Part shown: piece by piece, positions 34,677-38,011 of the stretch
Layout: every line of letters starts with the position of its first letter
Numbering within the stretch: the stretch's first letter is position 1
Assembly: GCA_020629255.1 (NCBI GenBank)
Contig: JAHDDR010000016.1
Location: 1-38,693 of the forward strand
DNA from: Saprospiraceae bacterium
GTDB lineage: Bacteria > Bacteroidota > Bacteroidia > Chitinophagales > Saprospiraceae
DNA: 38,693 nt
Direction of reading: 5' to 3'
Notes under the pieces: model-generated
Databases searched by the model: none
What the model was told of the DNA's origin: nothing
The model's input: the letters and a program-made list of their open reading frames with translations, nothing else
Translations under genes and position numbers: made by a program

Positions 34677-36371
34677 CTACCATTGTGAATCATCCACACC
34701 ATTCAAATAATCTTTGATCATTCCAACCACAGATGCCACACAACCATCTTCGAAGGGTGACCGCAGATTCGCATATTTGACTAAATCCAAGAAAGATTGG
34801 CTTCCTCCGGCTTTACACAATTTCACATAATCCGACCAAGCATCTTCATGATTTTCTTGATCTCTTTTCCAAAATTGAAACGCACAAACCTGGGCTAAGG
34901 TATAATCTATATAATAGAATGGCATTTCGAATATATGTCCTTGTCTTTGCCAAAAACCACCGTTCTCCAAATATTCATTTCCTTCGTAATCTCTAAATGG
35001 AAGATATTTCTTTTCGATGTCCCTCCATGCTTGATTTCTTTCGGCCGGCGTCATTTCCGGATTTTCATAAATGACATGTTGAAATTCATCCACAGCAACT
35101 CCATAAGGCAAGAACAAAATACTTCCGGCCAAATGTGCGAATTTATATTTTTGCTCATCTTCTTCGAAGAATAAGTTCATCCAAGGCCAGGTAAAGAATT
35201 CCATGCTCATAGAATGGATTTCACAAGCTTCGTAGGTGGGCCAATGATACTCCATCACATCCATATCCCTACTTGAATAGACTTGGAATGCATGCCCCGC
35301 TTCGTGGGTTAGTACGTCTATATCATGACTTGTTCCATTAAAATTGGAAAAGATAAATGGAGCTTTATATTTTTTGATGAAGGTGCAATACCCTCCAGTT
35401 GCTTTTCCATCTTTGGATACGAGATCCATCAATCCCATATTATTCATGAAGGAGAAAAATTCATCCGTTTCCGGAGACAACTCCTTATACATGGTTTTTG
35501 CATGATCTACAATCCATTCGGGCGATCCTTTAGGATCCGGATTTCCCGTTTTGAATTTGAAAGGCTCATCATAATAATATAATTTATCGAGCCCTAGGCG
35601 GCGACGTTGCCTTTCCCTGAGTTCATTAGAAATGGGAACCACATGATCCAAAATTTGTTTCCGATAATTCGCTACCATTTTGGCATCATAATCGGAACGG
35701 AGCATTCTGGCGTAACCTAATTCTACAAAATTATTGTATCCCAATTTTTTGGCAATGTGCGTTCTTACTTTTACGAGTTTGTCGTAAATCTCATCAAATT
35801 TTTCTGCATTATCGGCAAAGAATTTCCACTTGGCGGTTTGCGATTCTTTCCTAACATTTCGATCCTCACTATCATGGAATTTGAGAATAGTCGATAAATT
35901 ATATTCCTTTCCTTGAAACTCAATCTTCGCTTTTGCCTTGAGCTTGGTGTACTCGCTTCTAAGTTTATTTTCTTCTTGTAAATCTTGTAGGATTTCCGGC
36001 TCGAATGTTTTGGTACTTAAATCAGCAACGGTAAAGAGAAGGTTCCCTTTTTTTTCTTCCAATTCTTTTCTGCAAGGAGATTTCAATAAAGCTTTATAAT
36101 ATTTCGTGACCAATTCTTGGTACTTGGGTGTGTTCAAGTCGAAATATTCATTTTCTTTTTCATAAAATTTATCTTCGGTATTTACCGTATGTCTGATACT
36201 ACAAATATTATACATAGAATCAAACTCACTCCTCAACTCCCCTATTTCGTCCATTAGTTTACTCTGGTCATCACTATCGGTTGTATTTTCAAACTGGGCA
36301 ACCAACTTATCAAACCGCAGGGAGAGATCTTCCATTTCTGGGCGTGAATATTCAAAATCTTCAAATTTCAT
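34677..36371 (-). CDS. M3 family oligoendopeptidase
   Basis: A 564-residue cytoplasmic zinc metallopeptidase of the M3 (PepF/thimet) family that cuts short peptides. The zinc-binding helix is THEAGHAF with His356, catalytic Glu357 and His360; the third ligand region is YEACEIHSMSMEFF (about 382-395). The helical N-terminal two-thirds shape the usual enclosed channel. No signal peptide. It is preceded by a 102-nt leader with a hairpin (see the 36406-36447 entry) and a clear -7 promoter element, and followed by a bidirectional terminator. Confidence 0.95.
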   Translation of the reverse strand: MKFEDFEYSRPEMEDLSLRFDKLVAQFENTTDSDDQSKLMDEIGELRSEFDSMYNICSIRHTVNTEDKFYEKENEYFDLNTPKYQELVTKYYKALLKSPCRKELEEKKGNLLFTVADLSTKTFEPEILQDLQEENKLRSEYTKLKAKAKIEFQGKEYNLSTILKFHDSEDRNVRKESQTAKWKFFADNAEKFDEIYDKLVKVRTHIAKKLGYNNFVELGYARMLRSDYDAKMVANYRKQILDHVVPISNELRERQRRRLGLDKLYYYDEPFKFKTGNPDPKGSPEWIVDHAKTMYKELSPETDEFFSFMNNMGLMDLVSKDGKATGGYCTFIKKYKAPFIFSNFNGTSHDIDVLTHEAGHAFQVYSSRDMDVMEYHWPTYEACEIHSMSMEFFTWPWMNLFFEEDEQKYKFAHLAGSILFLPYGVAVDEFQHVIYENPEMTPAERNQAWRDIEKKYLPFRDYEGNEYLENGGFWQRQGHIFEMPFYYIDYTLAQVCAFQFWKRDQENHEDAWSDYVKLCKAGGSQSFLDLVKYANLRSPFEDGCVASVVGMIKDYLNGVDDSQW

Positions 36372-36405
36372 TTTATTGAGTTAAGGTTTTTTAATTTCAT
36401 TGGGT

Positions 36406-36447
36406 AATTATTGTTTAGTCCTTTTTGAAATGACTTAGACAATAATT
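36406..36447 (-). promoter_or_regulatory. Stem-loop in the 5' leader of the M3 peptidase gene
   Basis: AATTATTGTTTAGTC (36406-36420) and GACTTAGACAATAATT (36432-36447) pair with one bulged or mismatched site around an 11-nt loop. The stem lies 35-76 nt before the peptidase ATG, within the transcribed leader if the promoter at 36473-36480 is correct. Possible roles are mRNA stability or a regulator-binding palindrome. Confidence 0.5.
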
Positions 36448-36472
36448 CCAAGTGCTTGATTTTTATGAACGC

Positions 36473-36480
36473 CAAATATA
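36473..36480 (-). promoter_or_regulatory. Predicted promoter (-7 element) for the M3 peptidase gene
   Basis: The minus strand reads TATATTTG, an exact TAnnTTTG match, about 102 bp before the ATG. Confidence 0.5.
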
Positions 36481-36524
36481 AATAAAATAATCCAAGTTGC
36501 GTTTCCTTTAATAAATGGTTTTAC

Positions 36525-36693
36525 TAGGCATTATTACGAATTAAATAGTAGGGCTGAAATTTATATCTTTTGTTCCCACTCCTCTTCACATACTCATCTT
36601 GACAGCTAAGGCTATCAGATTCCGTGTATTCATCGATTGAAAACAAAATCTACAATTTCATCTCACATACAAAACAATTCGTAATAATGCCTA
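36525..36693. repeat. 169-bp imperfect palindrome with 18-bp perfect terminal inverted repeats (MITE-like)
   Basis: TAGGCATTATTACGAATT at 36525-36542 recurs as its exact reverse complement at 36676-36693. Inside, TGAAATT (36555-36561) faces AATTTCA (36654-36660), TTTTGTT (36568-36574) faces AACAAAA (36642-36648), and at the centre TGACAGC (36600-36606) faces GCTATCA (36611-36617). The arms keep nearly the same symmetry axis throughout (coordinate sums 73215-73218). If the repeats are 16 bp, both ends are flanked by TA, as expected for an insertion of the IS630/Tc1-mariner type, although TA is self-complementary and so is not independent proof. No coding capacity. A non-autonomous mobile element or a large regulatory RNA hairpin are the leading explanations. 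Confidence 0.7.
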
Positions 36694-36699
36694 CTTTTG
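36692..36699 (+). promoter_or_regulatory. Predicted promoter (-7 element) for the membrane hydrolase gene
   Basis: TACTTTTG is an exact TAnnTTTG match 31 bp before the ATG at 36731. Its first two bases are the last two of the palindrome, so the element end contributes to the promoter. Confidence 0.55.
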
Positions 36700-36730
36700 A
36701 ATTTATTTTAGACAACTATCTGAAACATAC

Positions 36731-38011
36731 ATGGATTCACTATCTCAAATTGTGTTGGGTGCTGCTGTTGGAGAGGCCACTCTAGGTAAGAAAATAGGAA
36801 ACAGGGCAATGGTTGCCGGAGCCATCGGCGGAACCATTCCTGATTTAGATGTAATAGCCAACGCATTCCTTACTCCCATGCAAGCTTTGGATTTCCACAG
36901 GGGCATTTCCCACAGTATCGTATTTTCGGTAATTGCTCCTTTTTTGTTTGGAGGCTTTGCCTATTTTCTGTACCGAAAAAATGTACATAGAAATAAATGG
37001 TATCGGGGGCTGTTATCTATCCCTCTTATTCTAGCTGTATTTTTTCTGGCTGGAGCAGCGGGTTATGCTGCTGTTTCTATACAAAATTGGTGGGCATTGG
37101 CTGGCTCAATTGCGATAGGTCTACTCTTAGCCATCCCCATGATAAAATATTGGCTTAAGCAACCCGACGAATTCGAAATATCATTTTGGCGTTGGTATCT
37201 CTTATTTTTCCTCGCTTTCTCCACCCATTTATTGTTGGATTGTTTCACCTCCTACGGCACTCAAATTTTCATGCCTTTCAGCAACTACCGAGTAGCCTTC
37301 AGCTCTGTTTCTGTTGTTGACCCCTTATACACCATTCCATTCTTGCTTTTTCTTCTTATGGCTGCCATGATGAAAAAAGACTGGACGATAAGAAGTATTA
37401 CAAATTGGTTGGGGATTATCATCAGTACCGGATATTTGTTATTCGGATTGTATAACAAATCTGTTGTGAACCAAGTTTTTGCCAAATCCCTAAAAACGCA
37501 TGATATAGAGTATTCAAGATATTTTACTTCTCCTACCTTATTCCAGACCCTACTTTGGTCGGGAACCGTAGAAAGTGATACCTCATATCATATAGGCGTT
37601 TATTCTAGGATGGATCCTTCTTCCACCATACAGCGGTTTGTGGAAATACCAAAGAACCACCATTTATTAGCGGGACATGAAAATGATGAACACATCCAAA
37701 TTCTAAAAAGATTTTCAAATGGATATTATACCGTTTCCCATTCTCCGGATTCGACAAGCCTCCTTTTTACCGACTTGAGGTGGGGTGCTTTAGACAATAT
37801 CATACAAATCCCCGAAGAAGAACGATTCCCCATGCAATTTGAATTGATAGAACAAAATGGAAAACTAATCGTCATCGAAGAAGAAAAAGATGAAGACGCC
37901 GAAATGTTCAAGGATTTGACAAGGCTGCCGACCATTTTAGCTGAGATGAATGAAAAACATCCGAACTTCTTAGTCGAATACTGGGAGCGAATTATGGGGA
38001 AAAGGCAATGA
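36731..38011 (+). CDS. Membrane-bound metal-dependent hydrolase (YdjM/PF04307 type)
   Basis: A 426-residue integral membrane protein of the YdjM-like family, named for its LexA-regulated E. coli member; its reaction is not established. The N-terminus has conserved DSLSQ (2-6), IPDLDVI with D38 and D40, HRGISHS with His56 and His61, and LLLDCFTSYGTQ (about 169-180), the likely metal site within about five membrane helices. The region from about residue 230 to 426 is a soluble domain not found in short family members, rich in charged residues near the end (EEEKDEDAE). It overlaps the following gene by 4 bp (ATGA), so the two are translationally coupled. Confidence 0.88.
   Translation: MDSLSQIVLGAAVGEATLGKKIGNRAMVAGAIGGTIPDLDVIANAFLTPMQALDFHRGISHSIVFSVIAPFLFGGFAYFLYRKNVHRNKWYRGLLSIPLILAVFFLAGAAGYAAVSIQNWWALAGSIAIGLLLAIPMIKYWLKQPDEFEISFWRWYLLFFLAFSTHLLLDCFTSYGTQIFMPFSNYRVAFSSVSVVDPLYTIPFLLFLLMAAMMKKDWTIRSITNWLGIIISTGYLLFGLYNKSVVNQVFAKSLKTHDIEYSRYFTSPTLFQTLLWSGTVESDTSYHIGVYSRMDPSSTIQRFVEIPKNHHLLAGHENDEHIQILKRFSNGYYTVSHSPDSTSLLFTDLRWGALDNIIQIPEEERFPMQFELIEQNGKLIVIEEEKDEDAEMFKDLTRLPTILAEMNEKHPNFLVEYWERIMGKRQ

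Follow-up and report, generated by a model that had tools for sequence, protein, structure and literature searches.

A mobile palindromic element of Saprospiraceae with an exchangeable and possibly RNA-level structured core

The spacer between two divergent genes of a Saprospiraceae bacterium harbours a near-complete palindrome, which raises the question of whether it is a mobile element, a structured RNA of the locus, or both. The window, i.e. the whole 38,693-bp stretch of DNA that was analysed, comes from a genome of 4.38 Mb in 271 contigs, and the palindrome lies in a 359-bp spacer between an M3 oligoendopeptidase gene and a YdjM-type gene. A first-pass annotation had described it as 169 bp long. 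The palindrome is real, but its outermost T and A are part of an ACT target duplication that lies outside, so that the element proper measures 167 bp (36526-36692 rather than 36525-36693). Our best explanation, held with good confidence, is a miniature transposon (MITE) with an exchangeable, structured core that possibly acts at the RNA level, the role of the core being putative. The features of the locus are the following.

34677-36371, minus strand: gene for an M3 family oligoendopeptidase, the divergent neighbour on the left (ORF list and annotation search)
36523-36525, no strand: left target-site duplication ACT (flank comparison and the locus in relatives)
36526-36692, no strand, conserved fold on the minus strand: MITE, 167 bp (dispersed copies, 3-bp duplication, shorter spacer in relatives)
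36526-36542, plus strand: left terminal inverted repeat AGGCATTATTACGAATT, common genus form AGACATTATTACGAATT (sequence and genus copies)
36571-36646, minus strand: conserved core (covariance model R1, 92.3 bits; this copy was among those used to build R1)
36600-36617, minus strand: hairpin at the centre of the core, usually TAGC-CNTA-GCTA on the minus strand (alignment)
36676-36692, minus strand: right terminal inverted repeat (sequence and genus copies)
36692-36699, plus strand: TACTTTTG over the right junction, possible -7 promoter box (match to TAnnTTTG)
36693-36695, no strand: right target-site duplication ACT (flank comparison and the locus in relatives)
36731-38011, plus strand: gene for a YdjM-type membrane protein, the divergent neighbour on the right (ORF list and annotation search)

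The analysis confirms the architecture initially proposed for the palindrome. Its perfect 18-bp terminal repeats lie at 36525-36542 and 36676-36693, with 17 bp of each within the element proper. The inner blocks share a common axis, and the plus strand of 36515-36705 has a folding energy of -44.5 kcal/mol, compared with a mean of -24.98 for shuffled sequences (z -5.23; sd 3.73; none of 200 shuffles as good). The central seven-pair hairpin, TGACAGC-TAAG-GCTATCA at 36600-36617, is present as well; one of its pairs reads C/A on the plus strand but G/U on the other. Over the element itself (36526-36692), folding is more favourable for the minus than for the plus strand (-56.7 vs -41.5 kcal/mol). 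The absence of coding capacity also holds, as the palindrome overlaps none of the ORFs of 60 aa or more. No Rfam family scored above its gathering threshold in the window, and two related copies gave only sub-threshold, implausible Rfam matches.

It is almost certain that the palindrome is a mobile, non-autonomous transposon, as indicated by dispersed copies, target duplications and relatives devoid of the element at the same locus. A DNA search with a 191-bp query gave 15 matches in its own genome, and the query matched 7 of the 60 genomes searched, namely its own and six congeners (7/9 genomes of the genus). The end pattern, with at most two mismatches, occurs in 8/9 genus genomes, with 36 sites in the source genome and 73 in congener G008; a reversed-pattern control gave 0 or 1 site per genome and strand, and the counts for G003 (5 sites) and G007 (2 sites) are near that level. 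The exact 19-base end pattern was found in 43 stretches of the public genome collection, all from Saprospiraceae. Several G008 contigs start some 30-65 bp before the end of a copy, so these draft assemblies probably understate the copy numbers. In one locus (L029, 1188-1540), a 353-bp stretch has the same ends and an ATT repeat, with an extra large inverted repeat inside.

Target duplications were sought immediately outside AGAC...GTCT. Three-base repeats flank 45 of 55 distinct copies, while repeats of 1 bp were found in three copies, of 2 bp in one and of 4-9 bp in none; with shuffled partners a 3-bp match is expected in 34% of cases, a high level due to the dominance of AAT and ATT. In a wider set the proportion was 50/61 hairpin-bearing copies with first-class ends, and among 93 first-class end pairs collected more laxly, 63 have a 3-bp and three a 4-bp repeat; in the wider set, end positions were chosen partly by the repeat, which biases the count towards finding repeats. 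At the locus itself, removal of the element and one duplication (170 bp) would reduce the 359-bp spacer to 189 bp. Five relatives have the same spacer without the element, measuring 188 bp (G001), 171 bp (G003), 163 bp (G005, worked out by hand), 165 bp (G007) and 141 bp (G004). The empty site suggested as a check is thus supported by these shorter spacers, but they are too diverged to define it to the exact base.

The surprise lies in the middle of the element, which recurs across the family within at least two kinds of transposon ends. Query positions 53-135 also match congener G002 inside other ends, TACACTGTAACATAAA, and among the 26 hairpin-bearing copies of this type in the genus, 14 are flanked by 5-bp repeats, with end positions again chosen partly by the repeat. 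Model R1 was built from 12 cores of one type (type A) taken from both end classes, the first having AGACATTATTACGAA ends and the second being the TACACTGTAA class; these cores align without gaps over 76 columns. In the window, R1 finds only 36571-36646 (E up to 0.1). It matches 93 of 298 Saprospiraceae genomes, representing 48 of 112 genera, with at least 16 candidates each in 11 of the 93, and 2 of 395 genomes in a phylum sample, both of them Saprospiraceae; the filters are stricter in searches of more than 40 genomes, and R1 might therefore have missed matches in the family and in the phylum. For a wide set of cores, 83 of 425 loci were searched, and 83 matches, 76 of them distinct, were aligned.

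We consider it highly probable that the core is an exchangeable module that was joined several times to the second class of ends, with its other duplications. Assigned by pattern, 80 distinct loci comprise 35 with first-class ends, 28 with second-class ends, eight with both patterns, eight that are one-ended and one with neither. Both end classes are present in the same genome in five cases (G000, G008, G458, G527 and G534). Among 34 first-class loci, 27 have a 3-bp repeat and seven have none; among 34 second-class loci, 5-bp repeats were found in seven, 4-bp in four, a 3-bp repeat in one and none in 22, with the reservations that end positions were again chosen partly by the repeat, favouring repeats, and that the ends of locus L366 are misplaced in the duplication count. 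That only 11/34 second-class loci have a 4-5 bp repeat counts against our reading. A tree of 69 distinct labelled cores implies eight changes of end class, compared with 7-9 in bootstraps and about 23 with shuffled labels, and its starred branches force at least three; this tree is based on 76 columns only, has many open forks and includes eight labels given by eye.

A second core type (type B), AGGCATTT...GTAGCCTTAGCTAC...AAATAACGA, was observed in six loci (L100, L102, L112, L113, L212 and L219). It shares the hairpin with type A, differs in the flanks and is likewise found in both end classes. R1 scores on type B cores are weak, 13 to 19 bits in six loci, with L146 reaching 39.8 bits. The kinship of type B to the core of the window, to which these scores lend weak support, is likely.

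The core fold is itself conserved. Across the 76 distinct rows, 96.5% of the cells are paired, compared with 76.9% after shuffling (none of 500 shuffles as high), although the wide alignment was fitted to the R1 model and the pairing counts therefore lean towards structure. The suggested check for covariation gave compensatory changes on both sides at 22 of 25 core base pairs; inverted repeats in DNA can co-vary too. The covariation score is 0.593, against 0.200 for shuffled and at most 0.098 for slid versions, one inherited change being counted many times in such scores. Five unpaired purines, A16, A29, G58, A59 and A62, are invariant in 76/76 distinct cores. The placement of GGA facing GA, and of GA facing GA, suggests that the purine internal loops would form tandem G-A pairs. 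Of the MITE and the structured RNA, first put forward as alternatives, the data favour a MITE, but one with a core that also behaves like a conserved structure.

As for the level at which this structure matters, the strand evidence is mixed. Over the 25 predicted pairs of the wide alignment, G-U pairs outnumber A-C pairs by 131 to 14, and by 54 to 13 over the 21 pairs that are predicted on the other strand too. In the arms outside the core the counts are 234 G-U and 93 A-C, or 65 and 25 among representatives at 80% identity. When folded as RNA, the core strand is more stable than its complement in 66 of the 75 distinct copies compared, a set drawn mostly from the source genus with a few other Saprospiraceae loci. 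Pointing the other way, fresh mutations within clusters of copies yielded 19 G-U and 15 A-C, which speaks against an RNA, and in second-class elements with type A cores A-C exceeds G-U. A symmetric self-alignment of the whole core also gave a count opposite to the structure-based one (151 G-U, 211 A-C), which we tentatively attribute to unequal internal loops that bring unpaired bases into register. The even split of tandem copies between the two orientations (16 with the genes, 18 against) and the lack of an Rfam match above threshold in the window also count against an RNA function. It may be that a long-lived lineage is kept on the fold of one strand and that inserted copies decay neutrally; neutral decay of single copies is what one would predict were active source copies the target of selection. 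On balance, we give a putative RNA-level function of the core a little less than an even chance.

The main competing explanation, which we find plausible at a somewhat lower level, is that of an ordinary MITE whose core is retained because the palindrome helps transposition as DNA, in hairpin or cruciform form, its arms being kept matched by gene conversion or template switching. Such an element would account for copies without orientation bias relative to genes and for the unclear strand bias of the 19 to 15 fresh mutations. It also fits the observations that 14 of 27 fresh changes at non-Watson-Crick pairs restored Watson-Crick pairing and that Watson-Crick sites change less than others (55 changes at 708 sites vs 39 at 265, p 0.006). 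It does not readily explain why unpaired purines of one strand are invariant, why G-U so exceeds A-C over the long term in both sets of pairs, or why the core is retained while arms and ends change. Conversely, it is tempting to speculate that the cores represent an undescribed class of Saprospiraceae structured RNAs riding in MITEs and captured repeatedly by different transposon ends, an idea as tentative as that of the ordinary MITE. Capture by different ends would then reflect selection on the folded transcript rather than partnership with one transposase.

In the scenario that we prefer, an IS5-family transposase would cut and insert the MITE in trans, and the core module would aid its own spread or the tolerance of the element by the host. 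The core would work as a folded transcript when neighbouring transcription reads through it, forming a long hairpin, interrupted by internal loops rich in purines, which might be insulating or processed, like the Correia and ERIC hairpins. Folding of the transcript would thereby render insertions tolerable, or the transcript would be processed. MITEs are usually viewed as short-lived debris of a single transposon. Here the middle outlasts the ends, with one fold in 48 of 112 sampled genera and transposon ends swapped around it, which offers a testable case of a non-coding, non-autonomous element kept for its internal structure. The many natural copies per genome provide sets for measuring the effect of a hairpin on nearby transcripts.

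Like Correia, ERIC and other bacterial MITEs such as RUP, the element is short, palindromic, mostly intergenic, dispersed and devoid of transposase, and it generates a target duplication. It differs from Correia and ERIC in that its ends and 3-bp duplication point to an IS5-type enzyme and that its core is found across the family, in two end classes. According to a review, Correia elements carry promoters and are cleaved by RNase III, and RNase E is linked with ERIC (PMC10969869). QMITE1 and QMITE2 of Coxiella are MITEs that yield small RNAs (PMC5896051); the accessible portion of that report describes no covarying core common to end classes, and transcripts of the element studied here are putative. 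For REP repeats tagged GTAG or CGTC, GT pairing was taken as a hint of an RNA role, and the authors consider that a wide range of transposases may mobilise the CGTC repeats (PMC3733652). REP repeats are palindromic too, but are given there as 20-40 bp long, compared with approximately 160 bp, terminal inverted repeats and duplications for our element. No publication naming such an element was found in the open-licence literature, represented mostly by titles and the beginnings of abstracts.

A host regulatory RNA belonging to this locus, be it a riboswitch, a leader or a small RNA, might be suspected from the covarying fold and from the position upstream of both divergent genes, in their 5' spacer. 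It is very improbable, being already contradicted by the dispersed copies and their duplications, and the locus lacks the element in five relatives. Moreover, the 70 copies with enough flanking sequence lie in tandem (34), divergent (21) and convergent (15) contexts without orientation bias, 16 of the 34 tandem copies running with the genes and 18 against them. Only one of the 70 overlaps an ORF of at least 90 aa.

The mobilising enzyme is probably an IS5-family transposase, as suggested by remnants in another Saprospiraceae genus. Genome G406 contains a decayed 801-bp element with ends AGCCATTATTACGAATT and AATTCGTAATAATGTCT, nearly those of the MITE (one end is off by one base), and with AAT on both sides. 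Its interrupted frames match DDE_Tnp_4 (1.1e-12 for the fragment and 8.4e-16 for a second partial copy); the NCBIfam IS5 model gives 39.7 and 38 bits on the fragments, below its 140-bit cut-off. It is the combination of near-identical ends, 3-bp duplication and DDE_Tnp_4 remnants that points to this family. The contig concerned (L148, G406 contig 4) harbours two decayed IS5-type copies with the ends of the MITE, at 1-712 and 1979-2779, with 98% similarity to each other across the transposase fragment. When one G406 fragment was used as a protein query at 1e-10, relatives were found in 22 of 398 family genomes and in none of the nine genus genomes, and DDE_Tnp_4 (PF13359) was likewise found in none of these nine draft assemblies. 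The closest relative outside G406, at 43%, is in G446 (locus L180), where a 278-aa ORF lies between AGAGATTATTACGAA ends approximately 964 bp apart. This second candidate parent lacks a 3-bp duplication, having AAT on the left and ATT on the right, which counts against our reading, as does the absence of a parent from the genus assemblies. At 1174-2290 of the locus, the IS5-type element adjoins or runs into, at its right end, a palindromic element that ends in a similar sequence.

The duplications, mostly of the A-N-T form, fit the ISL2 group of the IS5 family, whose 3-bp target we take to be A-N-T. The element thus resembles this group in that nearly the same ends bracket DDE_Tnp_4 or IS5-type remnants and that the duplications are mostly AAT and ATT; it differs in having no transposase, and its placement in this subgroup, suggested by the duplication pattern, is tentative. 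Two other candidate parents were discarded: PF01609 elements, present at seven loci in 6/9 genus genomes, have best end pairs with 4 and 4 mismatches, and a 1416-bp end pair in locus L041 has unequal flanks and encloses an unrelated 317-aa ORF. The plasmid collection gave no match, and viral contigs yielded four stretches with an exact single end, none of them with a correctly ordered partner within 4 kb. No parent of the second end class turned up in these searches for the parent of the element.

The Tc1/mariner or IS630-type origin with TA duplication proposed at first, to which the TA found at both ends of most copies lends some appeal, has to be abandoned as extremely improbable. Copies without the outer TA retain exact 3-bp repeats (ATA, ATC, AAA, TCT), which argues against a TA duplication, as do the 3-bp repeats of 45/55 copies; in addition, it is DDE_Tnp_4 remnants that are found in the 801-bp element, whose ends are nearly the same. 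The nine genus genomes contain 11 PF13358 loci, some of them cut by contig ends, and none has a close end pair; the three nearest pairs, with 3-4 mismatches per 15 on both sides, look like chance matches. Just as improbable is a short peptide encoded by the core: some members do contain short open stretches, but we reject it since stops interrupt each of the six frames in 43 to 75 of the 76 distinct cores and no single codon position concentrates the variability (0.91, 0.74 and 0.80 bits by phase).

Regarding the neighbouring genes, the element had been proposed to overlap a promoter of the YdjM-type gene. TACTTTTG does straddle the right junction and matches TAnnTTTG, possibly a -7 promoter box, but this motif occurs 40 times in the window compared with 43.8 expected by chance, which makes it weak evidence for a promoter. 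That the element reshaped the YdjM-side promoter is possible, with this one motif in its favour. The strand of the core points towards the peptidase gene here, and the core would form part of the peptidase leader if transcribed from the right of the element. The spacers of relatives contain boxes resembling TAnnTTTG on either strand, at a greater distance from the start of YdjM; an older promoter may therefore be separated from the YdjM gene by the element. Comparison of the spacer at 36400-36520 with those of loci L236-L240 revealed shared TTAnTTTTG and CAAAGRTA blocks, which resemble a divergent pair of TAnnTTTG promoter boxes; in the window genome the first of the pair appears degraded.
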